A stretch of 63,434 nucleotides of DNA from a virus, in the IMG/VR virus record IMGVR_UViG_3300020424_000350, positions 1-63,434 of that record. One strand, given 5' to 3'. Below the pieces are notes generated by a model. It was not told the DNA's origin, made no database searches, and worked only from the letters and a program-made list of their open reading frames with translations. Positions 6,970 to 47,894 of this stretch are shown here, one piece after another. The position numbers and the translations under genes were made by a program. Position 1 is the first letter of the stretch, and each line of letters starts with the position of its first letter.

Positions 6970-7653
6970 ATGATAAATCAATGGTCGTATAGCCGTTTAA
7001 GTTGTTTTGAAAAATGTCCCAAACAAGCAGAATTTAAATTTGTTAAAAAATTAAAAGAGCCTGGAAGTCCAGCAATGGATAGAGGCAAACATATCCATAA
7101 ACTTTGTGAAGAGTATATTCGTGGGTTTCATCAAGAAATACCAGAAGAAATAAAAGGATTAGAAGATAATTTTAAAGAACTAAAAGAACTGCACGAAAGA
7201 GGACACGTGCTTTGTGAAGAAGATTGGGCTTGGGACGAAGAATGGAAACAAACAGGCTGGTTTGATTATAATACTTGGGGTAGAGCTAAAGTGGATGCTT
7301 TTGTATATGAAGAAGGTGTTTCTAAACAAGCTCGAGTTATTGATTTTAAAACAGGAAAGTTCGAAGGTAATGAAGAAGCTCATAGAGAACAGTGTGAATT
7401 ATACGGTTCTATAGCTTTAAAAAGGTTTCCAGAATTAGAAGAAATAGTTACTGAAATGTGGTATTTAGACCATAATAAAATAAGTAAGTTCGTTTACGAT
7501 ACACAAACAATAATTTTAAAAAGAGACCGTATAAACGCTAGAGCTATAAATATGACTACAGCTACAGAGTTTCCTGCTAATCCACATAAATGGAGATGTC
7601 GTTGGTGCCATTTTGGTAAAGAAGGGTTATGCGAAGAAAGAATTACAGATTAA
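6970..7653 (+). CDS. Cas4/RecB-like PD-(D/E)XK nuclease
   Basis: This 227-residue protein starts SYSRLSCFEKCP, the usual opening of PDDEXK_1 nucleases. It has the catalytic segment VIDFKTGK (about residues 122-129) followed by a QCELYG helix. Cysteines at the start (about 11 and 15) and end (CRWCHFGKEGLC) could hold a Fe-S cluster as in Cas4 and AddB. It probably acts as a 5'-3' or end-processing exonuclease in recombination, replication or host DNA breakdown. GGAG precedes the ATG by six bases. Confidence 0.8.
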   Translation: MINQWSYSRLSCFEKCPKQAEFKFVKKLKEPGSPAMDRGKHIHKLCEEYIRGFHQEIPEEIKGLEDNFKELKELHERGHVLCEEDWAWDEEWKQTGWFDYNTWGRAKVDAFVYEEGVSKQARVIDFKTGKFEGNEEAHREQCELYGSIALKRFPELEEIVTEMWYLDHNKISKFVYDTQTIILKRDRINARAINMTTATEFPANPHKWRCRWCHFGKEGLCEERITD

Positions 7654-7654
7654 T

Positions 7655-8251
7655 ATGAAACACCCATATTTTATACTTCCAGATGTTTTACCAGATATAG
7701 TGGTAGAAGATATAAAAAACATTGTTTTAAATTACGAAGAAATAGACGGTGGTGTGGGCGGTAATGTAACTCTGCAAGAAGAAGCCACAGTAGATAATGA
7801 AATAAGAAGATGTAAACAACGTTGGATTCCACCTAACGCAGAAGATACTAAAAAGATACATAATCTTTGTACAGAAATATTTGAAGAAGCAAACAGAAGA
7901 TGTTTTAGCGTAAATTTAGATAGGGTGTTTAATATGTTTTACGCTGAGTATCGAGCAGAGGATAATGGTTATTACGCTCAACATAAAGACTCTAATTTAG
8001 GTATTAACGGTGAACTGTACGATAGAAAACTTAGTATGACAATACAACTATCAGACTCTGCTGAATATGAGGGGGGTGATTTTGTTTTTTATGATGACCT
8101 ACATGGTTGGGCTCAACCCGACAAGGAACGTATTAGGAAAAAGGGTGCGGTGTTTGTTTTCCCTTCTTTTTTAGAACATGGTGTAAAACCTGTAACGAAA
8201 GGAATTAGAAAATGTTTCATAGCTTTTATCGAAGGACCCGCTTGGCGTTAA
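7655..8251 (+). CDS. 2OG-Fe(II) oxygenase (prolyl 4-hydroxylase-like)
   Basis: From the ATG at 7655 the product has 198 residues. The iron ligands are visible as QHKDS (H-x-D) and the distal FLEHGVKPVTKGIRK, where the Lys or Arg would bind 2-oxoglutarate. The GGDFVFYDD strand between them is typical of P4H domains. The longer reading frame from 7613 overlaps the nuclease in another frame and is not needed. Phage homologues are frequent in marine genomes; the substrate (protein, base or small molecule) is unknown. Confidence 0.8.
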   Translation: MKHPYFILPDVLPDIVVEDIKNIVLNYEEIDGGVGGNVTLQEEATVDNEIRRCKQRWIPPNAEDTKKIHNLCTEIFEEANRRCFSVNLDRVFNMFYAEYRAEDNGYYAQHKDSNLGINGELYDRKLSMTIQLSDSAEYEGGDFVFYDDLHGWAQPDKERIRKKGAVFVFPSFLEHGVKPVTKGIRKCFIAFIEGPAWR

Positions 8252-12855: not shown

Positions 12856-15800
12856 GTACTTTTGCTGAACTACAAAATCAAGCAGTTGCAGAGTTAAAAA
12901 CTCAGCCTGTTTTAGATTTTTTTACAAACCAAACTTATCCTAATTTGTTATACGGTCAATTTCTTAATGATGAGCAACTAAAAAATTTAGCAATATTATC
13001 TAAAAGTAATGTTCAAAAATCATATTTAGAAAACAGAACTGAAAATGAACCTACTTTAGAAGAACTAAAAGAAAATTTTAAAAATGTAACATACCCACAA
13101 AGATTACAACCTTTTTTAAGACAACCTTTAGATTTAGATGTGAATGAATTTTTTCCACTTTATGCGGCTAGATTAAAACAATATGAAGAATCTTTAAAAA
13201 ATAGAGCAAACCCAGAAGAAATATTACAAAGACAACTCACGTATACACGAGGTAATTTTCCAGATAGCTTTGCTTCTGGTACAGAACCCATACCTGTCTC
13301 AACACCCATAGGTTACAAATACACTCAAGAATTAATAAATGCTGGTTACAATCCTGGAAATATTTTAGACGCTACTAGATTTAAATTAGCTATGAACTTT
13401 TTTGCAGGGTCTAATTATACTCCTGATACAGCTAATTATGCTGTAGAAAACGTAGGAGTAGCGGGTCCACGTAATAGTGATTTGATAAAAGCAACTGGAA
13501 TACCTAACCCAAAACTCTATAATTTAGAACCTAAATTCGCTTACGCTATTCCAAACAATCCTAATAATTCTATTGCATATTTTGCAGATATGAAAAACCC
13601 TCAAATACTAGACGCACCTTTTGTGTCAGGGTTAGATTTTTTAGAATTTGGAGCTGCAGAGGGATTGCCCATAATAGCAGAAATTCTTGCAGGTAATAAA
13701 ATAAATCAAAGTAAAAAATTAACTAATTTAATGCAATATGGTATAAAAGATGTAGGCAATATAAGAAAGGCAGCTGGTAAATTAGGTGAATATGGTTTCC
13801 TCGGTACTAGTGCAGCATTAACTTTATTTGGGCAAAGAGTGCTTGGTAAAATGAATGGTTATCATAATTATAGTGGTGAGCAAATGCTATATGAAACAGG
13901 ACTTTTAGCTGCTTTATCAGTGGGAGGACAAACAGTAATTGACGGATTTATGAAAGGTCTTCCACAGGTAGTTAGATTCTTATCAGGTGGTCGTACATTA
14001 GATACGAATGAAATGATAAAAATGAAACAACTACTAGATGAAAGAGCTAAACAATACAATGAGGGCGGTAAATATAAAGATGTATTCGAAGGTAAAGATA
14101 TATCTATAAAAGATATTAATGACGCTATTATTGATATAGCTGACGACGTACAAAGTAAAATAGGAAAATTTGACCCAACAGTAGCTCAAGCAACAAAAGA
14201 CGCATACTATGCAGATTTAGAAAAATTATTAAAAACGGAAGGAGCAACTAATTCAGAATATATAGATTGGTTTAAACAAACTTTAGCAGGTAATGCGGAA
14301 GTACGAGATAAATTTTTTAAAGCTATCTTCGATGGTTTAGATAATACAACAACGGGAGCTACTATAGCGGATGACGTAGGTGGAGCGATAAATAGTGAAA
14401 GGCAAGAATTTGTACAAAGAGGTCAACTTCTTATTAACGATTTTATTGAAGAGTTTGATTCTTTTAAACAAACGGGTGCTAGAAGTGCTGTTGAAGATGT
14501 TTATAGTGCTGATTATGCTACAGAAATAAGACCAGTTTTTCAAAAATTAATAACTGAAAGAACAAACGAATATAGAAAAGTTTTAAATGAACAAGATGTT
14601 GAATATTTAAATGCTTTAGGGTTAAGCGATGCTCCTATAAAAAGAGCTAACCCACAATTAAGAGCGGCAGCAGAGGCTTTAGACGCTGTTAATAATTTTG
14701 ATAATATTGTTAGTAGAGGATTGAGAGCAGGAGATAGAGCTGCTAAAAAAGAAATCGATGAAGTTTTTCCTGCAGACCTTAGAACTCAACTAACCGCATA
14801 CAATAACAATGATTTTACTATTCCAGAATTATTCGCTCTTAGAAAACAAATAGGACAATACCGAAATAGTTTAAATACAAAAATTCCTGCAGAACTTAAA
14901 TTAAATGATAAATTTTTAGCTTTAGAAAATTCTTTAGATAGTCAAATTTTAACAACCGCTAGAAGAGAGTTAAATCCAGCACAGTTTACAGAATTTAAAA
15001 TTTATCAAAGTGAAGCATTTAGAAAAATGTCTGATACTTATAACCCAGTTTTAACTGAAATAGCTAAAAAGAATCCAGAACAAATATTACCTTATTTTTT
15101 AAATCAAACTACTCCTGGAACATCTGTAAATACTCCGTTAAGAAATTTTGTAAAACATTTAGACCAATTAGGAGCTGAAGGTCAAAGTATAAAAAATAGT
15201 TTACAAAATGATTTAATAGATAATATACGATTTAATATTTTTAGTCCTGATAAAACTCCAGTAGAACAAAGCAAAGCATATTTTAGATTTATGCAAGATA
15301 ATAGAGCTTTAGTAAAAGAAATATTTCAAGAAGATAGTGTTTCTAAATTTGCTGACCCTAAGGTTTTTAGAGAAAAATTCTTACCAGAGATAGACGCATA
15401 CGAAGCTAGTCTTCGTAGACTAAACGATACTTTTGGAGAGGGCGATGCTTACAATATAGTAAGTAATATTTTTAATCAATTTGATAATACAGGTCAAGCG
15501 TTTAGTCAATTAGAACAATTAATGAATATTGTAAATTCAAGAGGAAGTAAAAAACTTAAAAAAGATATAACTCAAGTATTTAAAAAATATGTTTTAGACG
15601 CTTCGTCCACCGACGGAGCTTTTGATTTTAATAAATTTCGAAGTTTCGTAAATAACAGATTTACTCCTGATGAAGCTGCTGGTGCTAATTTATCTTTTAG
15701 AGGAGTAGCTAATTTAATTATGGGTAATGAAGCAGGAGATAAATTTGTAAGAAATATGAATGTTTTATCAGAAATGTCTGATAGATTAACACAAGGTTTT

Positions 15801-16593: not shown

Positions 16594-17427
16594 ATGCAAG
16601 GAATAGAGCAATTAACTAACATAATGACAGAGGGCGGTAGGTCAGATGTGCCTATGAGTATGAACTCCTCTCAAGGAATAGCAGGTATGATGCCACCGCA
16701 AGATATGGCGATGATGCAACAAGGACAAGTACCAAACCCTGCTGATTCTGCACCTCAGGGTATCGATATTAATAGCGACGCTGATATGTTAGCTTCAGCA
16801 GTGGTTGGTCGTACTAATGGAGATTTAGATGAGGCGGAGCAAGTATTAGAACAAAGTCTAATGTTAATTAAAACTGCTAAATCACAAACACAACAACCTA
16901 CAATGGCTGCTTACGGTAAACCTATTATGGCAGCAGAAGGTAAACCTATTCCTGACGGTAAAGAAGGAGCGGGTCTTAGAGCATTACCTAACGAAGTCGT
17001 AGAAAAAATGGGTTTTGTAAAAGCTTCAGAAGGTACAGAAATACCAACGCCAACAGAGGAACAACTCAGAGGAATGAGTCAAGCAGATTTTGATAGACTT
17101 TTTAATCTTTCACAAAGGGCTATTTCTGATATGGATAAAAATATATCTCCTAGTGAAAAACTACGTGAAGAAATGAGACGACTTATCATGGGTGCTATGG
17201 CAGCTAAAACACAAACTGGTCGCAGAGTTATGTCTGACAAAGATAGAGAAGTTATGTTAGAGGAACTAATTGTCAAACCCAGAGTAAAGCCAATGAGACC
17301 TAGTAACAAACTAGGAATGGCTTACGGTGGTGATGTTAAAAAAATGATGGGTGGCGGTCCGATGAAATATGCTGACGGTGGTGAAATGGAAGAATACGCG
17401 GGTGGCGGTTTAATCTATTTACCTTAA
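16594..17427 (+). CDS. Gly/Met-rich virion-associated protein
   Basis: The 277-residue protein has repeated short units such as AAYGKPIMAAEGKPI (about 107-122) and a C-terminus of GGDVKKMMGGGPMKYADGG-like glycine clusters ending GGGLIYLP. Such glycine/methionine tails are common in marine phage structural proteins adjoining ejection genes. Its TAA overlaps the stop codon of the convergent AlkB-like gene. Confidence 0.5.
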   Translation: MQGIEQLTNIMTEGGRSDVPMSMNSSQGIAGMMPPQDMAMMQQGQVPNPADSAPQGIDINSDADMLASAVVGRTNGDLDEAEQVLEQSLMLIKTAKSQTQQPTMAAYGKPIMAAEGKPIPDGKEGAGLRALPNEVVEKMGFVKASEGTEIPTPTEEQLRGMSQADFDRLFNLSQRAISDMDKNISPSEKLREEMRRLIMGAMAAKTQTGRRVMSDKDREVMLEELIVKPRVKPMRPSNKLGMAYGGDVKKMMGGGPMKYADGGEMEEYAGGGLIYLP

Positions 17428-18026
17428 ATACCAGTTCTAAAAGTTAAATTAACTCTTTCTCCCCCGCCTTCTACATCAGGTACACTATGAGTAGCGAACA
17501 TCTGTGAGTGTCCATCGAATATAAATAAATCCCCGTCTTCCATTAAATAATTAGTTTCTTTACGAGTGTCTGTAGTATAGATATTCGTTTTACTTGTATT
17601 AGTTTCTTTCTTTATATGATAACCATATTCATGCCATTGAAATATTCTAGGCGCACCAAAAGAAAGCGATACAACTAAATCATTATACGTAGGTACTGTA
17701 TCAGAATGGTGCGGTATACCTTTACCGTCAGTACCATAGTACCCACATAAACAAAATTTAAAATCAACTTCTATATCTAATTCTCTCCGTATAAAAGTTT
17801 CTAAATTACCTTTGATATATTTCATAGGTTGTGTCCAAGCGTCTGGATTATAACTTTTACCTGCATACGAAAATTTACTATCACCGAAACCTCTAGTTTT
17901 TCTACCTTCGATAGTTCTACCTTCGTAAATACGTTTAGTAGGTTTATCCCATTTATCTATAAGAGGGTCGTAACCCTTCATAGCTCCTTTATAAAATTTA
18001 AGCAATCCAATCTCTCCATTTTTCAT
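17424..18026 (-). CDS. AlkB-like 2OG-Fe(II) dioxygenase
   Basis: The product shows the AlkB arrangement: PHHSDTVP gives the H-x-D iron pair, SLSFGAPRIFQW the central strand, GDLFIFDG the turn, ATHSVP the distal His, and RVNLTFR the 2-oxoglutarate arginines. AlkB enzymes oxidatively remove alkyl groups from DNA or RNA bases. ATG 18026 (200 residues, or GTG 18029) overlaps the helicase stop by 29 bases. An ATG at 17981 is preceded by AAAGGAG but with only 2 nt spacing, so the longer form is kept. It pairs with the SNF2-like helicase in the only leftward operon. Confidence 0.85.
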   Translation of the reverse strand: MKNGEIGLLKFYKGAMKGYDPLIDKWDKPTKRIYEGRTIEGRKTRGFGDSKFSYAGKSYNPDAWTQPMKYIKGNLETFIRRELDIEVDFKFCLCGYYGTDGKGIPHHSDTVPTYNDLVVSLSFGAPRIFQWHEYGYHIKKETNTSKTNIYTTDTRKETNYLMEDGDLFIFDGHSQMFATHSVPDVEGGGERVNLTFRTGI

Positions 18027-19440
18027 CACCCAATACTTCTTGAGCTAGGTTTAATTTACTTCTTAATGCTTTTACTATCTTTTCATCAACAGTGCCTTTA
18101 GAAACTAAATCGATATATGTAACTTTATTGCTTTGTCCTATCCTATGAGCACGGTCTTCCGATTGTAATCTTTTTTCTAAATCATAGTTATTAGAATAAT
18201 AAACAACTGTATTAGCCGCAGTAAGTGTTATACCATACCCACCAGTTTGTACATTACTAATTAAATATTTCAGTTCTGAATCAGGGTCTTGAAATTTATT
18301 AATTATATTTTGTCTATCTTCCTCAGGAGTATCACCATAATAAGTAGCTACCGCTTCGACTCCTACAGTTTCTTCTAATACTTTTAATATTCTTCGTATA
18401 TCGTATTGATAATTAGCCCAAATAATAGTTTTACCTTGTACCTCTGCTAGTATATTTAATAATTCATCGACACGATTATTTTTTATTTCAACTTCCTCAC
18501 CTTTATCATGTTTTACAAAACCACATACAACTTGATGAAGTCTAAGTATTTGTGTAAGTACAGAAGTTACGCTTACAACTTCATTATCTTCTAGTTCTGC
18601 TAGAGCATAATCTTTTATTTCGTCATATACTTTCTTCTGCTCAGGGGTAAGTTCTACTTCCCTTCGCATATATACTTTATCAGGTAAGTCTAAACATTCT
18701 TTTTTGAGAACTCGGTACGAAAAGTTATTTACTTTATTACTAAGCTCATCTAAATGTTGATACCCTACAACTTGTCTAAAACTTCTTTGTCCCATAGCCC
18801 TATTTATAATTTGAGCATATCTATTTTGGAAAGAGTAATACGAACCATAGCCCAATAATGAAGGAGATAAAAACTCGCTTTGGCTAAATAAATCTAACGG
18901 TGATTGAGTAACTGGAAATCCAGTTAGTATTCTGCGATACTTACAATTTACCGCTAGTTTTAAAAGACTTTTGGTTCGTTGTGCTTTAGGATTTTTTATA
19001 GTCGTTGATTCGTCAACCGCTATCAGTGGGAAGTGGGTATTGATAAATTTATCAACAAACGTTACACCTTTCTTCGTGCTAAATGCTTCAACATTTATAA
19101 CTAATATTTTTAAATCTAAAGTACGGTCAAATAAACTTAATAACTTTTCTTTCTCTTTTTTAGTAGGGTTAGGGTTCCATACACCTACCCTATGTATTAC
19201 GTGGTCAGGTAAATGTGTAGGTATTTCTCTTTCTGACCAATTTTCATAAACACCTTTTGGTGCAATAATTATAGCCGCATTGATTTTACCCCTATCGTAA
19301 AGTACAGCTATATTATCAATAAGGACTTTAGATTTACCTGTCCCCATTTCCATAAAATATGCAAACTCCTCTTTATCCCAAGAGCGTTTTAATGCCTCTA
19401 ATTGATGACCGTAAGGTTCGGTCTTAAATTTATATTTCAT
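17998..19440 (-). CDS. SNF2/SWI2-family DNA helicase
   Basis: The 480-residue protein has all main SF2 Snf2 motifs: YGHQLEAL (Q-like), MEMGTGKS (motif I), AVDEST (motif II), LTGFPVTQ (motif III), then NVQTGGYGITLTAAN and DRAHRIGQ (V and VI). The C-terminal xSKGTVDEKIVKAL is also typical. It probably remodels or translocates along duplex DNA during replication, repair or recombination. It is transcribed leftward away from the replication block and precedes the AlkB-like gene, so the pair may act in alkylation or base repair. Confidence 0.9.
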   Translation of the reverse strand: MKYKFKTEPYGHQLEALKRSWDKEEFAYFMEMGTGKSKVLIDNIAVLYDRGKINAAIIIAPKGVYENWSEREIPTHLPDHVIHRVGVWNPNPTKKEKEKLLSLFDRTLDLKILVINVEAFSTKKGVTFVDKFINTHFPLIAVDESTTIKNPKAQRTKSLLKLAVNCKYRRILTGFPVTQSPLDLFSQSEFLSPSLLGYGSYYSFQNRYAQIINRAMGQRSFRQVVGYQHLDELSNKVNNFSYRVLKKECLDLPDKVYMRREVELTPEQKKVYDEIKDYALAELEDNEVVSVTSVLTQILRLHQVVCGFVKHDKGEEVEIKNNRVDELLNILAEVQGKTIIWANYQYDIRRILKVLEETVGVEAVATYYGDTPEEDRQNIINKFQDPDSELKYLISNVQTGGYGITLTAANTVVYYSNNYDLEKRLQSEDRAHRIGQSNKVTYIDLVSKGTVDEKIVKALRSKLNLAQEVLGDEKWRDWIA

Positions 19441-21439: not shown

Positions 21440-22963
21440 ATGTCGTTGGCAGAGGAATTTGCCAAACGGTTTGCTGGACTTCGTCAAGCGTATGGGACTT
21501 TTACAGCCCTAAACGAAACTAGGGAAGACGGTAAGGCGAGTGGAAAAAATGTAACTATATCTAAAGAGCTATCCGATGAAGGACTGCTTAAACTTTGGGA
21601 GAACCATTTAAAAGGTAAACAAAGTATAGGAATCGTAGCCATTGATGAAAATAATCAATGTGTCTGGGGAGCTATAGATGTAGACGAATATCAACTAGAC
21701 TTAAAAGGACTAGCTAAAAAGATATCGAAACATAAACTACCACTTACCGTTTGTCGTAGTAAAAGCGGAGGAGCACATATTTATCTTTTCGTATCTGAGC
21801 CTGTCGAAGCTTCATTAATGCAACGTAAGTTAAGACAACTTGCTGCGTCAATAGGTTTCGGTCAGGCTGAGATATTTCCAAAACAAACACAACTATTATT
21901 AGATAGAGGGGACAGAGGTAGCACTCTGAATATGCCATATTTCGCAGGAGAGAACTCTACACGGTATGCATATAATGGAGAAGGACAAGCTATAAGTCCC
22001 GAAGAATTTTTAGAAAGAGCAGAAGAATTAATACTATCTCCCTCAGGGCTAGAGTCGTTAGAAGCTAGTCCTTTAAGTGAGGAGATAGATTGGATAGACC
22101 AATCACCCCCTTGCTTACAACATTTAGTCGTACAAGGGTTTCCTAAAGGTACAAGAAACTCGGGTCTGTTTAATTTAGGTGTATTCCTAAGAAAGAAATA
22201 TCCAGACGATTGGGAAAAGAGATTAGAAGAAGTAAATATAAAATATATGCAACCACCATTAGGTGCACAAGAAGTATTAACTATTGCAAAACAAGTAAAC
22301 AGAAAAGATTATTTCTATAAATGTAATGACCAACCTCTCGCGGGACACTGTAATAGTCCTCTTTGTAGAACTAGGAAGTATGGTATCGGAGCGGGAGGGG
22401 GGACACCATTGTTTAGTAATTTAACTAAACAAGATAGTGACCCGCCAATATGGTTTTTAGACGTAGAGGGCGGTAGGTTAGAACTAGAAACAGATGATTT
22501 ACTAAACCAAAATAGATTTCAGCGTAAGTGTATGGACGCTCTAAATAAAATACCACCGAAGGTAAAAGAAAACGTTTGGAGACAAATAATACAACAACTA
22601 CTAGACTCTTTAACGATTGTTGAAGTACCTAAAGAAGCGTCTACCGAAGGATTTTTCTTAGAGTTATTAGAAGCGTTTTGCACCGAAAGACCTGCGAGAG
22701 AACGTGATGAATTATTACTACATAAACCTTGGACGGATAAAGGCAAGACTTATTTTAGATTAGCAGACCTTATGGAGTATCTACATAGACATAACTTTAA
22801 AGAGTATCAAAGAAATAAATTAACTTCTAAATTAAAACAATTAAATGGAGAGCCATACTTTTTCAATATAAAAGGCAAAGGTGTAAACGTATGGCATATA
22901 GATGAATTTAAAGCTCAAGATGAGTCGCATGATTTACCTGAGTTTGATGATAACCCGATATGA
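21440..22963 (+). CDS. AEP-type primase (TOTE-primase-like)
   Basis: The 507-residue protein carries an archaeo-eukaryotic primase core. WGAIDVDEY (about residues 76-84) supplies the D-x-D catalytic pair, and SKSGGAHIYLF the S-x-H strand, followed by EIFPKQ. A central Cys cluster (CNDQPLAGHCNSPLC, about 293-307) could bind zinc. The C-terminal domain is helical. It would synthesise primers or polymerise DNA. It is transcribed with SSB-like and helicase genes. Confidence 0.75.
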   Translation: MSLAEEFAKRFAGLRQAYGTFTALNETREDGKASGKNVTISKELSDEGLLKLWENHLKGKQSIGIVAIDENNQCVWGAIDVDEYQLDLKGLAKKISKHKLPLTVCRSKSGGAHIYLFVSEPVEASLMQRKLRQLAASIGFGQAEIFPKQTQLLLDRGDRGSTLNMPYFAGENSTRYAYNGEGQAISPEEFLERAEELILSPSGLESLEASPLSEEIDWIDQSPPCLQHLVVQGFPKGTRNSGLFNLGVFLRKKYPDDWEKRLEEVNIKYMQPPLGAQEVLTIAKQVNRKDYFYKCNDQPLAGHCNSPLCRTRKYGIGAGGGTPLFSNLTKQDSDPPIWFLDVEGGRLELETDDLLNQNRFQRKCMDALNKIPPKVKENVWRQIIQQLLDSLTIVEVPKEASTEGFFLELLEAFCTERPARERDELLLHKPWTDKGKTYFRLADLMEYLHRHNFKEYQRNKLTSKLKQLNGEPYFFNIKGKGVNVWHIDEFKAQDESHDLPEFDDNPI

Positions 22964-24459
22964 CATTACCTAGTAAAACACAAGTTATTCTTGGACCGCC
23001 TGGAACTGGAAAGACGAGTACCTTACTTGGTCTTATAGAAGATGAATTAGAAAGTGGAACAGAACCTGATAAGATAGGGTTTTTTACCTTTACTAAAAAG
23101 GCGGTATCTGAGGGTAAAGATAGGGCTATAGCTAAGTTTGATAATATTTTAGATAAAGATTTACCTTATTTTAGGACTTTACATTCTCTAGCGTTTAGAC
23201 AACTAGGATTAAATAGAGAGAATGTTCTAGGTCGTAGGGATATATTAGATTTAAATGAAAAAATGAATTTAAAACTAACTGGGTCTAGTAATTCAGACGA
23301 CGGGCATTTATTTGCTATGACACATGATGATAGATTAGCGTTTATAGAAAACCTAGCACGTATGCGAGGGGTAGGTTTAAAAGACCAATGGCACGATGTA
23401 GAAGACGCTGTAGGTTGGTTTGAATTAGAGCGTTATGCGAAAGGATTAAATTTATTTAAACAAGATAGATTACTCGTAGATTACACAGATATGTTACAAG
23501 ACTTTCTTACTAAAGGAGAAATACCTAAGTTAGATGTTATGTATGTAGATGAAGCTCAAGACTTGTCCCCTTTACAGTGGTCGGTGGTGCGTAAGTTAGC
23601 AGAAAACTCTACTAGGGTTTATGTTGCAGGTGATGATGACCAAGCTATTTATAAGTGGGCGGGTGCTGATGTTGATTATTTAATTAGTAATTCTAAAGAC
23701 GCAATGATTTTAAAACAATCCTATCGTGTACCTTTTTCTGTGCATGATGTTGCTATGAGATGTATAAATCAGGTACGTTCTAGGGTACATAAAACATGGA
23801 ACCCTAGAGAACAAAAAGGTACAGTAAGGTGGGAACCAAACATAGATTTAGTAAACATGGAAAGCGGTGAATGGCTTGTATTAGCTCGGACAAACTACCT
23901 TTTAGAACAAGTAGATGAGTATTGCAGGAATGAAGGTTGGTTTTTTGAAGTGAAGGGTAGACCCAGTATTTCTGAAAAAAAGGTACAATCCGTGATAAAC
24001 TGGGAAAGACTTAGAGCAGGGGAAAAAGTAACTTTAGCTGAGTGTGTGAACATCATAAAACAGATTAAATTAAAAAATCCTAAAGTTATAGATACTATCG
24101 ATGAAAAAACGAAACTTGATATGAAAGATATGCTGTATTACTTTCCCGATATACCTCAAAGTGTTTGGTTTGACGCTTTTAGTTTATTAAGTGTAAAAGA
24201 AATCAGCTACATACGAGCCATGCTACGTAGAGGAGAAAAGATTACTAAAAAACCTAGAATAAAATTATCCACTATTCATGCCGCTAAAGGTGGTGAATGT
24301 GAGAATGTAGTATTGATTACAGATATTACTAATAGAGTTTATAAAAATTATCAGCAAAATCCTGATGATGAGAATAGAGTATTTTATGTTGCAGTTACGA
24401 GAACTAAAGAAAACTTGTACCTTATTGAACCTCAAAGTCCTCGCTGCTACCAAATGTAA
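22960..24459 (+). CDS. UvrD/Rep-family SF1 helicase
   Basis: The 499-residue protein contains GPPGTGKT (Walker A, about residues 13-20), FFTFTKKA (motif Ia), VDEAQDLSPLQW (motif II), AGDDDQAIYKWAGA (motif III), QSYRVP (motif IV), STIHAAKGGECENV (motif V) and YVAVTRTK (motif VI). It is therefore a 3'-5' SF1A DNA helicase for replication or repair. It overlaps the primase stop by four bases. Catalytic residues appear complete. Confidence 0.9.
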   Translation: MTLPSKTQVILGPPGTGKTSTLLGLIEDELESGTEPDKIGFFTFTKKAVSEGKDRAIAKFDNILDKDLPYFRTLHSLAFRQLGLNRENVLGRRDILDLNEKMNLKLTGSSNSDDGHLFAMTHDDRLAFIENLARMRGVGLKDQWHDVEDAVGWFELERYAKGLNLFKQDRLLVDYTDMLQDFLTKGEIPKLDVMYVDEAQDLSPLQWSVVRKLAENSTRVYVAGDDDQAIYKWAGADVDYLISNSKDAMILKQSYRVPFSVHDVAMRCINQVRSRVHKTWNPREQKGTVRWEPNIDLVNMESGEWLVLARTNYLLEQVDEYCRNEGWFFEVKGRPSISEKKVQSVINWERLRAGEKVTLAECVNIIKQIKLKNPKVIDTIDEKTKLDMKDMLYYFPDIPQSVWFDAFSLLSVKEISYIRAMLRRGEKITKKPRIKLSTIHAAKGGECENVVLITDITNRVYKNYQQNPDDENRVFYVAVTRTKENLYLIEPQSPRCYQM

Positions 24460-24673: not shown

Positions 24674-24774
24674 TGGCTAATAAAACTATGACCATGAAGG
24701 AACACATGGAGATGATGGAGAGAATAAAAAATAAAGAAAAGAAACCACCGCGTAGGATAAAGGTAAAGAAATGA
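24673..24774 (+). CDS. tiny basic protein
   Basis: A 33-residue Met/Lys-rich peptide (MANKTMTMKEHMEMMERI at the start) with start and stop overlapping its neighbours (TAATG, ATGA). The tight coupling is the main evidence that it is translated. No function is recognised. Confidence 0.45.
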   Translation: MANKTMTMKEHMEMMERIKNKEKKPPRRIKVKK

Positions 24775-25256
24775 ATATATTTTATGTATCTAAAAGTCCT
24801 AAAGAAGCGGCAGAGTTTTTACCTGATAAACTGATAGTAAAAATGCCTTTAGAGTCTGCTCAGATGTTATGCACTGCTCATAGAATACATTCCGATGAAG
24901 ATTGGTGTGACGCTAATGGTATTTATAAAATAGCATATAAAAACCACCCATGTACGATATGGGCTAGAACTACTAGTGATAATTATTTTTGGCTATACAG
25001 TCATTTTATTGCTTTATGTTCTGAATATACTAGAAGATACGGCAAAGAACATTTAAGTTTTACAAAATTAGAAGAACCGCTTTCATATCTTCCCACTGAA
25101 ATAAAGTTAGGAGGATTAACGAAATTACCTCAGGCAATGCCTGATGAGTATAAACATGAGAACCCAGTTCTCGCTTACAGAGATTATGTTATACACGAAA
25201 AACATTATGCTAAGTGGGAAAAGGGTAGAGATAAACCAGATTGGTGGGAGGTGTAA
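24771..25256 (+). CDS. conserved phage protein of the modification operon
   Basis: The 161-residue protein starts MNIFYVSKSPKEAAEFLPDK and continues with the widespread phage family pattern of VKMPLESAQMLCTAHRI, NHPCTIWAR, FWLYSHFIALCSEYTRRYG and QAMPDEYK. This family occurs in many phages next to DNA polymerase and nucleotide genes, usually without assigned function. Conserved His, Glu and Trp residues suggest an enzyme. It is coupled by ATGA overlaps to its neighbours. Confidence 0.65.
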   Translation: MNIFYVSKSPKEAAEFLPDKLIVKMPLESAQMLCTAHRIHSDEDWCDANGIYKIAYKNHPCTIWARTTSDNYFWLYSHFIALCSEYTRRYGKEHLSFTKLEEPLSYLPTEIKLGGLTKLPQAMPDEYKHENPVLAYRDYVIHEKHYAKWEKGRDKPDWWEV

Positions 25257-26113
25257 TGTCATCAATAAGAAGAAAACTTACTGTCAATGAAAACGATAGT
25301 AAAAATACTAGAATGGACTTAGCGTCAGCAGGTATTCTAGGTAATTGGAGACCCGATGAGTTAGCTCATATGAGTCGTTTCGATAAAATAGCTTCACTAT
25401 GTATAGACGAAGCTAAAAGATTAGGTAGACCACTTAATACTTTTGAAGTTGGTTGTGGTGAGTGTTGGGCTTTGCGTTGTCTTTATAAGGCATATGTAAT
25501 AAAAAAGACTGACATAATCAGCTCTTATGTTGGATATGATATAGACCCTGCATGTGAGATGGAAAACCCTTATTGGTCTAATGCGGGTGGAGAACTAAAA
25601 GACTCTGCTTGGTTTAAAATATTTAATGGTGAAATACGTATACAAGATTTAACAGTAGACCCTATATTTAAATTAGACGATGAAAGTATAGATTTCTTTT
25701 GGTCTACGGAAGTTATAGAACACATGGGTAGGGAGTTTGTTCCTGCTTGGTTAGATGACGTTGCTAGGGTTATGAGACCAGGAGCATTAGGATATGTATC
25801 TACTCCTAACCATGATGGGTCTAATGATAAACTTCCCGAAGACCATGTATATGAGTGGGGTTTCGAAGAACTAAAAGAAGAACTAGAAAGAAACTTTGAG
25901 ATAGAAGCTGTTACTGGAACATTTATACAACTTCCTAGATTGAAAAAGTTTATGAATGACCCTGAGAATCACCATAGAGAATATGGAGGATGGACTCATA
26001 AACAATTTAGTATGCTAGAAGATAGATTCGGTAAGCAGTTTTTGAGAATGGCAGCAGCGACTTTTTATCCATCAGTAGCTAATAATTGTGCATGGAGAAT
26101 ACGTAAGAAGTAA
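25256..26113 (+). CDS. class I SAM-dependent methyltransferase
   Basis: The ATG at 25256, overlapping the preceding TAA, gives 285 residues; the upstream TTG would extend it by five residues. Motif I is FEVGCGECWALR, motif II YVGYDIDP, and motif IV-like FFWSTEVIEHMGREFVP, followed by MRPGALGYVSTP. This is a Rossmann methyltransferase of the UbiE/Methyltransf_11 type, not a canonical DNA methylase (no DPPY or PCQ). The target is unknown; the neighbours suggest a nucleotide or base-modifying step. Confidence 0.8.
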   Translation: MSSIRRKLTVNENDSKNTRMDLASAGILGNWRPDELAHMSRFDKIASLCIDEAKRLGRPLNTFEVGCGECWALRCLYKAYVIKKTDIISSYVGYDIDPACEMENPYWSNAGGELKDSAWFKIFNGEIRIQDLTVDPIFKLDDESIDFFWSTEVIEHMGREFVPAWLDDVARVMRPGALGYVSTPNHDGSNDKLPEDHVYEWGFEELKEELERNFEIEAVTGTFIQLPRLKKFMNDPENHHREYGGWTHKQFSMLEDRFGKQFLRMAAATFYPSVANNCAWRIRKK

Positions 26114-27057
26114 TGACCTTTATACCAGAACAAGTAGAACTTTATAAGTATTGGATTTCCGAAAGGGAAGGTATACGAGTGTGTAAAGAATACTATGAAG
26201 ATAAACCGCCTTGGACAGAAGACGAGATACTCAGAAAGTTTAAGTTTTGTCAGGTATATAGAGAAGATGATAGGACTACCCGTTGGTTAAGAACTCATAT
26301 AAGAGACCCATTAAAAGATAAGCCCGAAGTATTTATGGCTACGGTTATCTTTAGGTGGTTTAATCTTATAGAAACGGGTAGAACTCTATTAGATAACAAC
26401 TTACATATAGAATGGGATAGAGAAAAAGCTATAGAACTTATACGAGTACAACCTAAATGGATTACGGGTGCTTATATTATCAAGACACCTAACCGTATGG
26501 ATAAAGTTACAGGAGTCGCTGAGTCTATAACTCATATGTGGAACGCTAAAGATTATATTTTAGAACAACTCTATAAATATAAAGAGCAAGACGGTGGGTC
26601 ATTACAAAAAGCATGGGAACTTATAAAAGAGTATCCGTATATGGGTCCATTTATGGCATACGAGGTAGTCACAGATTTACGATTTACTCATTTGTTAAAC
26701 GAAGCTACAGATATTTGTTCGTGGGCTAACGCTGGTCCAGGTGCAATGAGAGGGCTAAATAGGTTGACAGGTAGAGAACTAACTTTTTCAAAACGAAGTC
26801 ATGACTGGAACTCTGAAATGCAAGAGCTCTACGACATAGTAAAAGTTAATAACCATAATTGGTGGGTATTGAATAAAGGTATGTACGACTTAAAACATAA
26901 CTTCGAAATGAGAGAAGTAGAAGGAGGACTTTGTGAGTTCGATAAGTATTCTCGTATATTAAACGAGGAAGGAAGAACAAGGTCTATTTATAAACATAAT
27001 AAACATCTTCCTATAGTGGAAGACATAAAAGAAGGAGAAAGCATATGGGCAAAATGA
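26113..27057 (+). CDS. 5-hmdU kinase helical-domain / aGPT-pyrophosphorylase-like protein
   Basis: The 314-residue protein matches the family that Pfam calls the 5-hmdU DNA kinase helical domain, which includes alpha-glutamyl/putrescinyl-thymine pyrophosphorylases. Visible signatures are YREDDRTTRW (49-58), FRWFN (80-84), a YPYMGPFMAYEVVTDLR segment (174-190, HhH-like) and ANAGPGAMRGLNRL (205-218). In characterised phages such enzymes replace the pyrophosphate of pyrophosphorylated 5-hydroxymethyl-dU in DNA with an amine or amino acid. No Walker motif is present here, so the kinase half is missing from this protein. It is coupled to the methyltransferase by a one-base overlap. Confidence 0.75.
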   Translation: MTFIPEQVELYKYWISEREGIRVCKEYYEDKPPWTEDEILRKFKFCQVYREDDRTTRWLRTHIRDPLKDKPEVFMATVIFRWFNLIETGRTLLDNNLHIEWDREKAIELIRVQPKWITGAYIIKTPNRMDKVTGVAESITHMWNAKDYILEQLYKYKEQDGGSLQKAWELIKEYPYMGPFMAYEVVTDLRFTHLLNEATDICSWANAGPGAMRGLNRLTGRELTFSKRSHDWNSEMQELYDIVKVNNHNWWVLNKGMYDLKHNFEMREVEGGLCEFDKYSRILNEEGRTRSIYKHNKHLPIVEDIKEGESIWAK

Positions 27058-27266
27058 GTGATTTAGCCATAGAGCTCTTAGATACGTGGGGTGAGGAAGT
27101 CGATAAATACTATACTCAGTTCGTAGAAGTAGCGTATTTTCTAAACGTACCTGCAGATTATACTCAAGCGGTAGAGTTTATAAAAAGGAAGATACCCGTA
27201 CTTACAGACTCAGAGATAGGGTTTCTTATAGACGAAATAACAGGAATGCATAACTCACCAGTATGA
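27045..27266 (+). CDS. small hypothetical protein in modification operon
   Basis: The 73-residue helical protein lies between the pyrophosphorylase-like and thymidylate-synthase-like genes, overlapping both. GGAG seven bases before the ATG at 27045 favours that start over ATG 27054. It is acidic with no family that I recognise. Tight coupling suggests a partner of one of the two enzymes. Confidence 0.55.
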   Translation: MGKMSDLAIELLDTWGEEVDKYYTQFVEVAYFLNVPADYTQAVEFIKRKIPVLTDSEIGFLIDEITGMHNSPV

Positions 27267-28324
27267 ATACGTTAAAGGTAAGGAATGTAAATGAAGCCCT
27301 AGAAAGAGGGATTGATTTATTTTGTTTTCCAGATAATTATATAGAACAAGATAGTAGAAACGGTAAAACATTAGAACTAAATGAACCATTAACTACTGTT
27401 TATCAGAACCCTTGGGAACGAGTTTTATTTTGTACTAAACGAGATGCTAACCCATTTTTTCATTTTATAGAAAGTCTATGGATGTTGAATGGTAATAATG
27501 ATTTAGCACCACTTACATATTTTGTAAAATCTATGAAAGATTTTTCTGATGACGGTAGGACTTTAAATGCTGCTTATGGTAATAGGTGGAGAAGTTATTT
27601 TGGTGAAGACCAGATAGAACAAATTATAGATATATTAATTAAAAACCCTGACGATAGACGTGCAGTTTTACAGATGTGGGGTATAAAAGATTTAGCGGAT
27701 AAGTCTTTAGATGTGCCTTGTAATACGAATATTTATTTTAAAATCAGAAACGGAAAATTAAATATGACAGTCTGTAATCGCTCTAACGATATGGTGTGGG
27801 GGGCTTATGGTGCTAATGCAGTACATATGTCTATCCTTCAAGAATATATTGCTTTAGCTATAGGAGTCGATATAGGAGTCTATACACAGATTAGCGATAG
27901 CTTACACGTTTATCAGAATAAAGTTTGGGATAGAATAAAAGGAGCAGAACTTGACCCTTTAACATATAGACATTTAAGTTCTGATTACTGTGACGGTTAT
28001 GAGTATAGTCCACTCTATACGGATAAAGAAATATTCGATAAAGAATTACGAATATTTTTTAGTCCTTTTAATTTATGGTGGCTTGATATAGATGATGTTC
28101 CAGAACATACAGAAAAGAAAATAGATTTATCTAACTATAATTTTAATGAGCCTACTTTCAAAGACATAGCTATGCCTATGGTGAAAGCGTTTAGTGCTCA
28201 TAAAGAAAGAGATTACGATAAAGCGTATGAGTATGTATCTAAAATTACTGCTCAAGATTGGATGGTAGCTTGTTTCAATTGGATAACTAAGAGGGATAAG
28301 CTACATAATTTAAATAATAAATAA
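27263..28324 (+). CDS. thymidylate synthase family (candidate dUMP hydroxymethylase)
   Basis: The 353-residue protein has thymidylate-synthase signatures: FFHFIESLWMLNG at the start, RRAVLQMW, catalytic Cys153 in DVPCNTN, CNRSNDMVWGAYGANAVHMS for dUMP binding, and QISDSLHVY. The Cys is followed by Asn rather than the usual His of PCH. This GAYGANAVH form is typical of phage TS homologues, some of which make 5-hydroxymethyl-dUMP. It lies beside the aGPT-type gene, so a hydroxymethylating role is attractive; ordinary dTMP synthesis cannot be excluded. Confidence 0.85.
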   Translation: MNTLKVRNVNEALERGIDLFCFPDNYIEQDSRNGKTLELNEPLTTVYQNPWERVLFCTKRDANPFFHFIESLWMLNGNNDLAPLTYFVKSMKDFSDDGRTLNAAYGNRWRSYFGEDQIEQIIDILIKNPDDRRAVLQMWGIKDLADKSLDVPCNTNIYFKIRNGKLNMTVCNRSNDMVWGAYGANAVHMSILQEYIALAIGVDIGVYTQISDSLHVYQNKVWDRIKGAELDPLTYRHLSSDYCDGYEYSPLYTDKEIFDKELRIFFSPFNLWWLDIDDVPEHTEKKIDLSNYNFNEPTFKDIAMPMVKAFSAHKERDYDKAYEYVSKITAQDWMVACFNWITKRDKLHNLNNK

Positions 28325-28333
28325 GGAGTACTT

Positions 28334-28690
28334 ATGACAAGTAAGTGGGAAGCTATGAAAGATATAGCACAGAGAGACCTTGAAGCGTTAAAGAAAGCAG
28401 AAACTTCGTACGGAGATTCTTGGAAACGTAGAGGAGGTGTAGGAGCTTTTATGATGTTAGCTCGTAAGTTCGATAGGATAGAACACCAATCAGAAAAACA
28501 TGGTTGGGATATCTTTGAAGCTGGAGAAGCATTTAAAGGTGAAGCAGGTCTACTAGATGATATACGTGATTTACGTAGATATTTGTTACTTTGTGAACAG
28601 GAGATATTGGCACAGTCCGACCCTGAAACCATAGAGGAAATGTTTAGTACAACTATAATACAGGAGAGTCAAAATGACGATAATAGCTAA
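28334..28690 (+). CDS. Nmad1-like nucleotide-modification-associated protein
   Basis: The 118-residue helical protein contains SYGDSWKRRGGVGAFMMLAR and a KFDRIEH segment, the pattern of the nucleotide modification associated domain 1 family (formerly DUF1599). Members occur in phage base-modification loci and may resemble MazG-type nucleotide hydrolases. AAGGAG precedes the ATG. It follows the thymidylate-synthase homologue by nine bases, which supports a joint role. Confidence 0.6.
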   Translation: MTSKWEAMKDIAQRDLEALKKAETSYGDSWKRRGGVGAFMMLARKFDRIEHQSEKHGWDIFEAGEAFKGEAGLLDDIRDLRRYLLLCEQEILAQSDPETIEEMFSTTIIQESQNDDNS

Positions 28691-28886
28691 AGTTCTTAAA
28701 TTTTTTAAGAAAAACGATAAAATCGATGAAGCGTTAGATGAAGCAGCAGTCGATTTACCTAAGTTCGAGGAAAAGAAACATAGACCTAAAGCACCAGAAA
28801 AAACTCAACAAGTTGGTGTAGTTAGGGCTAAAGGTAAGAAACCTAGAGCTAAAAAGACTAAGATACAAACTAAAAATAAAAAGTGA
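28674..28886 (+). CDS. small Lys-rich protein upstream of DNA polymerase
   Basis: A 70-residue protein with an amphipathic N-terminus (IIAKVLKFFKKNDKIDEAL) and a basic, Lys/Pro-rich C-terminus. It overlaps the upstream gene by 17 bases and the polymerase GTG by four. Basic tails like this may contact DNA or polymerase, but no family is recognised. Confidence 0.5.
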   Translation: MTIIAKVLKFFKKNDKIDEALDEAAVDLPKFEEKKHRPKAPEKTQQVGVVRAKGKKPRAKKTKIQTKNKK

Positions 28887-30742
28887 TTCAAGAACCTATG
28901 TTCGCACCTAAGAGTAATTGGGAAGTACCTGAGTTATTTCCTAATATACCTGAGACGAAAACTATCGCGGTAGATTTAGAAACCTGTGACCCTAACTTAT
29001 TAGTTAAGGGTCCAGGTTGGGCTACAGGTGACGGTTATGTTATAGGTGTGGGTATAGCTACTGAAGATTGGAAAGGTTATTTTCCTTTTAGACATCAAGG
29101 CGGGGGCAACTTAGACGAGGGGTTAGTCCTCAAATGGCTGTCTAAAACTCTTTCATCTAATAAACGTGACGTGGTCTTTCATAACTCATTGTACGATGTT
29201 GGGTGGTTAAAAAGAGAAGGTGTAGAGGTGTGTGGGAATATAGTAGATACTATGTTCGCAGCACCTCTCATCGATGAAAACAGACGTTCGTACTCACTAG
29301 ACTCATTGGGTGAGAGTTATTGTAATAATAAAAAAGATGAGTCTTTATTACAAGACGCGGCACTTGCTTATGGTATAAATCCTAAATCAGAAATGTATAA
29401 ACTACATTCTAAATATGTTGGACCTTATGGTGAACAAGACGCGGCACTTACATTAAAAGTTTGGGACAAATTAAAACAAGAAATAAAAAGTCAAGACTTA
29501 TCAAAGATATATGAATTAGAAACTAGTTTGATACCTCTACTTATAGAAATGAGGTGGCGAGGTGTAAGAGTAGATGAAGAAAAAGCTCACTCTATCTCGA
29601 AAGAACTATCTAAAAAAGAACAAAAGATTCAAGTAGAAATAAAAAGGAAGTACGGTTCGGAAGTCAATCTATGGGCTAATGCTTCTCTACAAGACATATT
29701 CGATAAAAATAAATTATTCTATCCTAGAACTGAAAAAGGTATGGCTTCTTTTCAAAGACAGTGGTTAGAAAGCCATACTCATGAACTACCTAGACTAATT
29801 GTAGAAGCTAGAAAATTAAATAAAGCTAGGACTACTTTTATAGATAAAATGATATTAGAACATTCACACGAAGGTCGTATACATGCAGAAGCTCATCCAT
29901 TACGTAGTGATAGAGGGGGCACGGTCAGTGGTCGGTTCAGCTATAGTAATCCTAATCTACAACAAGTACCTGCAAGAGACCCAGAGATTGGAGATATGAT
30001 ACGCTCTATCTTCATACCTGAAGAAGATTGTGAATGGGGTGTATTTGATTACTCACAACAAGAACCTAGATTAACTGTACATTATGCTGATAAAATGAAT
30101 TTAGCGGGAGCTAAAGAGGCAGTTGTAGAGTATACCGAAAGAAATGCAGACTTTCATCAGATAGTTGCAGATATGGCTAATATACCACGTAAACAAGCTA
30201 AGACGATAAATCTAGGACTTAGTTATGGAATGGGTAAAGAAAAATTAATTAATGAGTTAGGTCTAGATGATAACGAAGCACAGAAGCTATTCGACCAGTA
30301 CCATGAAAAAGTACCTTTTATAAAAGGACTACAAGACCAATGTACTCGAATAGCTACGGATAGGGGATATATAAAGACTTTAGGGGGTAGACGATGTAGG
30401 TTCGATTTATGGGAGAGTAGGTTTGAAAGAACTACACCTCTACCATTAGAAGAAGCTAAAAGTGAATATGGTGAAAGTCTAAAAAGGTCTTTCACTTATA
30501 AAGCTCTGAATAGATTGATTCAGGGTTCAGCGGCAGATATGACTAAGTTAGCTATGCTGGAGTTGTGGAAGGAAGGAATTATTCCACATCTACAAATACA
30601 TGATGAAGTTGATATATCTGTGAAAGATAAAACCGAAGCTAAGAAGGTGTGTGAGATTATGCGAGATTGTGTAGACTTAGTTGTACCTTTATTAGTTGAC
30701 TATGAACTTGGTCCATCATGGGGTCAAACGGAGGAGCAATAA
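28883..30742 (+). CDS. family A DNA polymerase with 3'-5' exonuclease
   Basis: The 619-residue replicative polymerase has exonuclease motifs AVDLETCD (I), VFHNSLYDVGWL (II) and YGEQDAALT (III). The polymerase motifs are VFDYSQQEPR (A), RKQAKTINLGLSYG (B) and LQIHDEVD (C). In motif B the residue equivalent to E. coli Phe762 is Leu444, a change that affects rate and fidelity and is frequent in marine phages. The GTG at 28883 overlaps the upstream stop; ATG 28898 is the alternative start. It should replicate the genome with the AEP primase. Confidence 0.95.
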   Translation: MIQEPMFAPKSNWEVPELFPNIPETKTIAVDLETCDPNLLVKGPGWATGDGYVIGVGIATEDWKGYFPFRHQGGGNLDEGLVLKWLSKTLSSNKRDVVFHNSLYDVGWLKREGVEVCGNIVDTMFAAPLIDENRRSYSLDSLGESYCNNKKDESLLQDAALAYGINPKSEMYKLHSKYVGPYGEQDAALTLKVWDKLKQEIKSQDLSKIYELETSLIPLLIEMRWRGVRVDEEKAHSISKELSKKEQKIQVEIKRKYGSEVNLWANASLQDIFDKNKLFYPRTEKGMASFQRQWLESHTHELPRLIVEARKLNKARTTFIDKMILEHSHEGRIHAEAHPLRSDRGGTVSGRFSYSNPNLQQVPARDPEIGDMIRSIFIPEEDCEWGVFDYSQQEPRLTVHYADKMNLAGAKEAVVEYTERNADFHQIVADMANIPRKQAKTINLGLSYGMGKEKLINELGLDDNEAQKLFDQYHEKVPFIKGLQDQCTRIATDRGYIKTLGGRRCRFDLWESRFERTTPLPLEEAKSEYGESLKRSFTYKALNRLIQGSAADMTKLAMLELWKEGIIPHLQIHDEVDISVKDKTEAKKVCEIMRDCVDLVVPLLVDYELGPSWGQTEEQ

Positions 30743-46361: not shown

Positions 46362-47417
46362 ATGGCTGAACCACAATTTAAACCAGCGAGACCACCTATA
46401 GAACAATTTATATCAGATGTTCGTGGTCAGGGGATATTACAAACTTTAAACCCTAATTTAAAAAACGACCCCGTATTTCAAAAGGTTTCTTCAGCTTTAG
46501 ATTTTATAATACCAGACCCCGACAACCCGTTGGACTTTCTCGGTCCTGGTGGTAAAGTAGCTGCTGGATTTTTTAGTAATTTACCTTTACCGTTAGCTAG
46601 AAAAATAAAAGCTACGATGAAGAAAATAGAAGATTTAGAATTAAAAGTAAAAAGAGAACGAGCAGCTAGAAAATCCGATGGACCAGCCGCTTCTACAGCT
46701 TTAGAGAAAGCGGAAAACTCATTAAAAGCACAAAACGAAAAATTAGATAAACTGTTTGAAGAGGGTGGTGTAAAAGGTCCTCCTCGAGTAATTAAAAATA
46801 AAGAAGAACAATTAGCCGAAACATTAAGTAAAGATAATGTATATCACGGTGGCATAGCAGGATTAAAAACTGAAGCGGGTGAACAATTTTTAAAAAGACC
46901 ACCAGCAGCTACAGATGATGCAGGAGTAGCTCAATCAACGGGAGGTATTTATTCAGTATTAAATGTTGATGACCCTAGATTTTTTAATTTCTCTGGTAGA
47001 AATATCGACCCTAAAAAATCAGGTTACATAGTTTCACCTGAGTTAAGAAGAACGGTAGACGCGGCAGATATGCCAAAAGATTTACAAAACAAACTATACG
47101 ATAGATTGTCTGAATTACAACAAGTCGATGACTTTGGAGGATTAACTCCTTTAGAAAGATATACTTACTTTAATATTTCTAAAATCTTAGGTAAAGAACC
47201 GATTAAAAATTCAGGATTAGTTCCAGGAGTGTTTCAAAAAGAAACTGGAGATATTTTCAGACAAGAAGGATTCGATTCTATATTATTCCCCAGACGACCT
47301 AACTTCAAAGGTGAGGGTAAAACTTTGATATCTGTTGCTGACGACAACTTGCGTATAGCGGATGAAATAAAGTATGATGAGGTCGCTGATTTTATTAGAA
47401 AAATGAGTGGAAAATAA
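46362..47417 (+). CDS. virion-block protein with ADP-ribosyltransferase-like C-terminal domain
   Basis: The 351-residue protein has a helical N-terminal half. Its C-terminal half contains VYHGG (about 165-169), GGIYSVLNVDD, and GFDSILFPRRPN followed by TLISVADDNLRIA. These echo the YHGT...GYDG...VFDPxxIR layout of phage-encoded ART-like domains. If so it could modify host proteins or be ejected with DNA. No ribosome binding site precedes the ATG. The ART call is tentative. Confidence 0.4.
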   Translation: MAEPQFKPARPPIEQFISDVRGQGILQTLNPNLKNDPVFQKVSSALDFIIPDPDNPLDFLGPGGKVAAGFFSNLPLPLARKIKATMKKIEDLELKVKRERAARKSDGPAASTALEKAENSLKAQNEKLDKLFEEGGVKGPPRVIKNKEEQLAETLSKDNVYHGGIAGLKTEAGEQFLKRPPAATDDAGVAQSTGGIYSVLNVDDPRFFNFSGRNIDPKKSGYIVSPELRRTVDAADMPKDLQNKLYDRLSELQQVDDFGGLTPLERYTYFNISKILGKEPIKNSGLVPGVFQKETGDIFRQEGFDSILFPRRPNFKGEGKTLISVADDNLRIADEIKYDEVADFIRKMSGK

Positions 47418-47418
47418 A

Positions 47419-47712
47419 ATGCCAAGGAAAAAAGAAAAATCAATTAGACGTACCACAGGTAAAGGCGGTAATTATAGACCGACTAAAGCTGGTGCGGGAA
47501 TGACTAAAAAAGGTGTTGCTGCCTATAGACGTAAAAATCCTGGAAGTAAATTAAAAACTGCTGTTACAGGTAAAGTCAAAAAAGGTAGTAAAGCTGCAAA
47601 AAGAAGAAAGTCATACTGTGCTCGTTCTGCAGGACAGATGAAAAAGTTTCCGAAGGCAGCAAAAAATCCTAATTCTAGGTTGAGACAAGCAAGACGAAGA
47701 TGGAAGTGTTAA
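47419..47712 (+). CDS. small basic phage protein
   Basis: The ATG at 47419 gives 97 residues rich in Lys, Arg and Gly. A conserved block AAYRRKNPGSKLKTAVTGKV and a KRRKSYCARSAGQMKK segment recur in marine phages and viruses with unknown function. It probably binds DNA or is packaged. The longer reading from GTG 47407 overlaps the previous gene and is not preferred. Confidence 0.65.
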   Translation: MPRKKEKSIRRTTGKGGNYRPTKAGAGMTKKGVAAYRRKNPGSKLKTAVTGKVKKGSKAAKRRKSYCARSAGQMKKFPKAAKNPNSRLRQARRRWKC

Positions 47713-47892: not shown

Positions 47893-47894
47893 GT

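Follow-up and report, generated by a model that had tools for sequence, protein, structure and literature searches.

A candidate thymidine-hypermodification cassette of a pelagiphage-like genome in which a methyltransferase takes the kinase position beside HMUDK_hel

INTRODUCTION

The pathway of phages M6, Epa5, and ViI pairs a hydroxymethylase-type thymidylate synthase (TS) homolog with a protein of the HMUDK_hel family, and in the M6 and Epa5 types these two genes are near neighbors close to DNA polymerase A. Here we analyze a 63,434-base virus record (IMG/VR record IMGVR_UViG_3300020424_000350, positions 1 to 63,434; the whole stretch is called the window below) in which the same pair lies in the same setting. 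The window cassette shares the hydroxymethylase and HMUDK_hel with that pathway but lacks the features that define the M6/ViI type, a P-loop kinase and an amino-acid:DNA transferase (ADDT). It also lacks the pyridoxal phosphate (PLP), flavin, and radical S-adenosylmethionine (SAM) tailoring enzymes, and a class I SAM methyltransferase (MT) stands in the slot of the kinase.

Phages SPO1 and SP8, whose DNA contains bare, undecorated 5-hydroxymethyldeoxyuridine (5-hmdU), share with the window the residue set of a dUMP hydroxymethylase and differ in having neither HMUDK_hel nor a PF18748 kinase. Cassettes that join HMUDK_hel to glycosyltransferases (TAGT, or a group 1 glycosyltransferase with FkbM) likewise contain HMUDK_hel and TS and are mostly kinase-free, but their decorator is a glycosyltransferase, which the window does not have. 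The HMUDK_hel family was formerly called aG/PT-PPlase1. A study of pelagiphages has described TS paired with aG/PT-PPlase1 near PolA in clades V, VIII, and IX and interpreted the pair as a sign of thymidine hypermodification (PMC9599517). These clades match the window in phage group and in the TS and HMUDK_hel genes. The main text of that study mentions neither a methyltransferase nor the absence of a kinase; what is added here is the exchange of HMUDK_hel partners.

A SAM family enzyme also makes a new phage DNA base in the CmoX system, but CmoX is a cytosine-C5 methyltransferase homolog that uses cytosine and carboxy-SAM, whereas the window MT is of the Methyltransf_23/11 type and lies beside an hmdU pathway (PMC12783734). 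The transformations of 5-hydroxymethyl-dU and -dC named in that 2025 paper are glycosylation, amination, and carbamoylation; methylation is absent from the list. A literature search for 5-methoxymethyl-dU in phages gave nothing relevant, and MT-type cassettes may have been mentioned earlier. The MT-type cassette hints at a so far undescribed DNA base, and a widespread marine phage group looks able to replace thymine with 5-hydroxymethyluracil and then to cap it by means of a methyltransferase.

RESULTS AND DISCUSSION

HMUDK_hel and its changing partners

The argument rests on three genes of the window, all on the + strand:

25256 (25241) to 26113, + strand: class I SAM methyltransferase (MT), the proposed decorator; Methyltransf_23/11 (PF13489/PF08241), E 1.5e-6
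26113 to 27057, + strand: HMUDK_hel protein; PF18723, E 9e-43, 147 bits against a curated cut-off of 25; PHROG_2396
27263 to 28324, + strand: TS homolog; PF00303, E 3e-25; PHROG_5131, E 4e-106

A first-pass annotation, made by reading the window, had proposed a thymidine-hypermodification cassette here, and that proposal is supported. Its methyltransferase was confirmed, the protein beginning at 26113 falls in the HMUDK_hel family and not in an unrelated one, and the TS match is certain, with the Asn that had been noted after the catalytic Cys present in the alignment.

HMUDK_hel loci were gathered by HMUDK_hel sequence alone, so their neighbors were not selected. Clustering at 95% identity gave 132 HMUDK_hel lineages, 115 of which had at least 2.5 kb on both flanks; since the sample is weighted toward the window, L081, and their relatives, counts from it are not natural frequencies. 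Within the collections searched and at the score thresholds used, a decorator gene lay within 7 kb in all 115 well-flanked lineages (MT in 60, P-loop kinase in 27, and glycosyltransferases without a kinase in 28, a few near-threshold calls among which could be wrong). MT and kinase never occurred together in these 115, and TS was present in 127 of the 132 lineages. The occurrence of MT beside HMUDK_hel in 60 distinct well-flanked lineages is far beyond chance. When 87 HMUDK_hel proteins were placed on a maximum-likelihood tree, the label of the decorator changed at least 11 times. At 45 HMUDK_hel positions, conservation extends to at least 90% of the proteins in each of the MT, kinase, and glycosyltransferase classes, and no class-specific positions were found across the three. 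M6, ViI, and phiW-14, which have decorated thymidine, carry HMUDK_hel, and none was found in SPO1 and SP8. Together, the exchange of partners, the conservation across classes, and the presence or absence of the protein in decorated or bare-hmdU phages suggest that HMUDK_hel acts on DNA-borne hmdU, whatever the chemistry of the decorator. Because its partners include glycosyltransferases and MT besides kinases, HMUDK_hel provides no evidence for a kinase step.

The arrangement varies among the classes. PAC6 (M6 type) has, in this order, genes for ADDT, a PLP enzyme, a radical SAM enzyme, the P-loop kinase, HMUDK_hel, Nmad5, and TS; the corresponding series in Epa5 is ADDT, a flavin enzyme, an acetyltransferase, the kinase, HMUDK_hel, and TS. 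The TAGT (PF20691) class is exemplified by L231, L232, and L240; TAGT lies between HMUDK_hel and TS in these three and in L243. In L079 to L081 and L168 to L174, the kinase is replaced by a group 1 glycosyltransferase and an FkbM methyltransferase, suggesting a product that would be glycosylated, and perhaps methylated, hmdU. Between HMUDK_hel and TS, L184, L190, L198, and L201 have a radical SAM enzyme (PF04055) together with a glycosyltransferase-like protein, joined there in L184, L198, and L201 by a cytidylyltransferase-like protein (PF01467). No Pfam family matches the glycosyltransferase-like protein of the L184/L198/L201 type, which is labeled from a reading of its sequence.

Several loci showed further features. 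Directly upstream of HMUDK_hel in L231, L232, and L240 is an endonuclease V-like gene, at the position held by MT or kinase in the other types. Besides ADDT, L267 to L271 have a tandem pair of P-loop kinase genes ahead of HMUDK_hel and may carry out two phosphorylations in succession. In PP931173.1, the HMUDK_hel match at 14790 to 15638 is annotated as "terminase small subunit," probably wrongly. Contigs assigned to bacterial or archaeal genome bins (L274 to L282), which may represent prophages or viral contamination, also had HMUDK_hel cassettes.

The structural model of the window HMUDK_hel is all-helical, with a predicted local distance difference test score (pLDDT) of 93. Its best solved match is 8z2n, a Pseudomonas phage 5-PmdU glycinyltransferase named PUGT (probability 0.96, E 0.066, TM score about 0.4). 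HhH-GPD DNA glycosylases come next, AlkA, OGG1, and endonuclease III among them, and the E-values are weak throughout. A sequence search for solved relatives gave none, and a profile comparison of HMUDK_hel with ADDT gave a probability of 7%. A base-flipping, DNA-binding architecture is plausible from the model. HMUDK_hel could instead be an enzyme in its own right, a kinase or other activator of 5-hmdU after which the kinase, glycosyltransferase, or MT acts. The invariant polar residues R50, D53, R81, N84, K131, D188, D200, R213, R217, E275, D277, and K278 resemble an active site, and the Pfam name also speaks for an enzyme. We nevertheless consider this unlikely: kinase-type phages have a separate P-loop kinase, no one activation obviously suits phosphorylation, glycosylation, and methylation, and the fold is nearest to DNA-binding glycosylases and a transferase.

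The methyltransferase as the proposed decorator

In all 63 clusters, the gene immediately preceding HMUDK_hel on its strand is MT. A separate MT-anchored scan, many of whose contigs were also in the HMUDK_hel-based survey, found HMUDK_hel immediately downstream in 80 of 80 loci and no kinase, ADDT, or glycosyltransferase in any of them. The METHYLTRANSFERASE (MT) is a member of the cassette. In Epa5 and PAC6 it is the kinase that lies upstream of HMUDK_hel. With MT upstream of HMUDK_hel in every cluster and no kinase found in 22 MT-type genomes, MT thus occupies the position held by the kinase in M6-type phages and in Epa5. The methyltransferase had first been viewed as adding a further step; that it could give an undescribed modification still stands, but it looks like a replacement for the kinase and not like a later addition.

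The longest MT open reading frame (ORF) opens with TTG at 25241, and conservation in the family suggests a start at the ATG at 25256. The residues of the SAM site are invariant in the family. In a test for m6A, m4C, and m5C enzymes, MT matched general Methyltransf Pfam families only and no DNA-methyltransferase family; its motif IV is STEVIEHM, without a [DNS]PP[YFW] or Pro-Cys motif. Very many class I enzymes match the MT model (pLDDT 82). The nearest among the matches listed are small-molecule methyltransferases, SpnF, TleD, AtmM, and RebM among them, and none of the 50 solved matches listed is a DNA-base methyltransferase. The first 29 residues (window 25256 to 25340), MSSIRRKLTVNENDSKNTRMD, are nearly invariant in the family and have low model confidence; they may fold on DNA, SAM, or a partner. 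Among named phage records, no MT relatives or near DNA relatives were found. The MT-type contigs come from metagenomes, and the phage collection yielded no MT-bearing isolate.

The resemblance of MT to a broad small-molecule type of methyltransferase would suit a phage whose 5-hmdU DNA is bare or partly bare, with MT acting on protein, RNA, or a small molecule, and SPO1 and SP8 do live with bare hmdU. Such a separation of MT from the DNA is quite unlikely, as MT always adjoins HMUDK_hel and SPO1 and SP8 are without HMUDK_hel. MT might also move a group other than methyl (e.g., aminocarboxypropyl or carboxymethyl) from SAM or a derivative to hmdU, giving a bulkier base. The phage enzyme CmoX uses carboxy-SAM on cytosine (PMC12783734), and the N-terminal and STPNHDGSNDK segments of MT are unusual, strongly conserved, and partly of low model confidence. 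We regard this transfer as very unlikely, because plain methylation requires host SAM alone; next to MT, where no profile search was aimed at such a partner, nothing CmoA-like was noticed. Joint action of MT and HMUDK_hel on hmdU in DNA is, on the gene evidence, the probable arrangement.

Kinases, transferases, and other decorators

The first reading had recognized no P-loop hmdU kinase, and this held up: PF18748 and kinase profiles built here gave no P-loop 5-hmdU kinase in the window at E ≤ 10, and in a P-loop pattern scan only the helicase held a convincing P-loop. A hidden kinase in the window was rejected on these combined grounds, Pfam and purpose-built profiles (E ≤ 10) and the pattern scan. 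No kinase was found in any of 22 MT-type genomes (56 to 84 kb) by a search that was positive in all four kinase-type control genomes (E < 1e-60). ADDT (PF18724) also had no match in the window at E ≤ 10, and because this transferase is absent, an amino product of the M6/ViI type is unlikely in the window phage. Decorators other than MT were also rejected for the window, as purpose-built profiles for glycosyltransferase, FkbM, TAGT, radical SAM, PLP, and flavin enzymes gave no match there at E ≤ 10.

These searches bear on a conventional route in which a host or unrecognized phage kinase phosphorylates 5-hmdU in DNA, with HMUDK_hel taking part, and MT acts on a later intermediate. HMUDK_hel is named after the kinase and adjoins it in M6-type phages, and the exclusion reaches recognizable kinase families only; set against this are the lack of any kinase profile match in the window (E ≤ 10) or the 22 related genomes and the lack of an ADDT that would use the phosphorylated intermediate. 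The conventional route therefore appears quite improbable.

The TS homolog as a hydroxymethylase

The window TS was aligned with E. coli ThyA, T4 dCMP hydroxymethylase, SPO1 gp29, and SP8. In ThyA numbering, it has Met 80, Asp 143, Asn 147, Asn 165, and Asn 177. SPO1 gp29, which is annotated as a dUMP hydroxymethylase, and SP8 have the same five residues, whereas ThyA has W, L, H, Q, and N. The window TS has thus lost W80, L143, and H147 of ThyA and retained Asn177, the combination that marks a dUMP hydroxymethylase; Asn177 in the TS family goes with a uracil substrate. Because this residue set is of the SPO1 gp29/SP8 type, the predicted activity of the window TS is very probably 5-hmdUMP synthesis.

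Proposed pathway

We propose a kinase-free cassette in which TS, HMUDK_hel, and MT would give the phage DNA a modified thymine, a reading to which we give an even chance. TS would hydroxymethylate dUMP to 5-hmdUMP, as its active-site residues suggest, and after conversion to the triphosphate, the polymerase would build 5-hmdU into DNA as in the known pathway. HMUDK_hel may then recognize 5-hmdU in DNA and present it to whichever decorator is encoded, a step consistent with its partner exchange, conservation, and fold. Here the decorator would be MT, most simply by O-methylation of the hydroxymethyl group to give 5-(methoxymethyl)-2'-deoxyuridine as the end product; other transferred groups or sites are possible. 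That this is the exact product is somewhat less than an even bet. More tentative still is the full proposal that HMUDK_hel is a universal presenter to interchangeable kinase, glycosyltransferases, and MT and that marine MT-type phages contain 5-methoxymethyl-dU, a combination not described before. The expected benefit would be protection from restriction enzymes, as in known hypermodified phages (PMC6449724).

Several points weigh against this proposal. The Pfam name ties HMUDK_hel to the kinase, and its fold matches are weak (E 0.066, TM score about 0.4). M6 kinase preparations are reported to be active on hmdU DNA (PMC6449724), so a need for HMUDK_hel in the M6 kinase step is not demonstrated; statements on M6 enzymes made here rest on that study and on annotation. 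Class I methyltransferases act on many substrates, and the neighborhood alone therefore leaves the acceptor of MT unfixed. The roles of MT and of the window HMUDK_hel, like the modified base, are deduced from gene evidence.

If the proposal is correct, a large marine phage group decorates thymine without a kinase, and methylation joins the chemistries applied to the hydroxymethyl handle. The name HMUDK_hel would then mislead, the protein being a shared DNA-side component of several pathways, and its function would be directly testable by pairing it with different decorators.

Neighboring genes and genome context

The remaining genes of the region are as follows:

22960 to 24459: helicase, preceding the cassette
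24771 to 25256, + strand: T4 endonuclease V-like pyrimidine-dimer glycosylase homolog; PF03013, E 3e-9; PHROG_624, E 1e-55
27045 to 27266, + strand: 73-amino-acid protein, overlapping the HMUDK_hel and TS genes
28334 to 28690, + strand: 118-amino-acid conserved protein; no Pfam family
28674 to 28886, + strand: small basic ORF
28883 to 30742: DNA polymerase A, beyond the cassette

Neighboring cassette genes overlap by a few bases, except for a short gap after TS: MT and HMUDK_hel meet at TAATG, HMUDK_hel and the 27045 ORF overlap by 13 nucleotides, and that ORF meets TS at ATGA. The overlap or abutment behind the earlier description of four adjacent, coupled genes is therefore real, but adjacency is broken between HMUDK_hel and TS by the 73-amino-acid ORF, which occurs in many but not all related loci and has no Pfam or PHROG match. 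The PF03013 glycosylase at 24771 to 25256, the first gene of the interval initially singled out, had been left unnamed. Only part of the related loci carry one, and in L080 and L081 it lies elsewhere on the opposite strand; it is a neighbor and not a constant member of the cassette.

The 118-amino-acid protein had been called Nmad1-like. This assignment was rejected, as neither the protein nor its 19 relatives (20 members) had an Nmad match at E ≤ 1; their remaining profile matches were weak and unrelated. Its motif, SYGxSWxxRGGxGAFMMLARKxDRIE, is present in both MT-type and glycosyltransferase-type loci.

The window has a G+C content of 35.7% and a direct terminal repeat of 97 bases (1 to 97 and 63338 to 63434, with two mismatches), a pattern that would be expected if the genome is complete or nearly so. 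Since its portal protein is 46 to 56% identical to those of HTVC023P and HTVC027P, both Pelagibacter phages, and to that of 023Pt_psg01, the window is assigned by portal homology to a pelagiphage-like, HTVC023P-type group. In 023Pt_psg01 just two small genes lie between helicase and polymerase; the 023Pt_psg01 and HTVC023P genomes gave no match to HMUDK_hel or MT. Elsewhere in the window, a series of small, very Lys/Arg-rich ORFs (47407 to 48727) lies ahead of a terminase-like gene. There are also two 2OG-Fe(II) oxygenases, at 17424 to 18029 (− strand) and 7613 to 8251 (+ strand), one AlkB-like (PF13532) and one of PF13640; such genes are reported to be common in the phage group of the window (PMC9599517).

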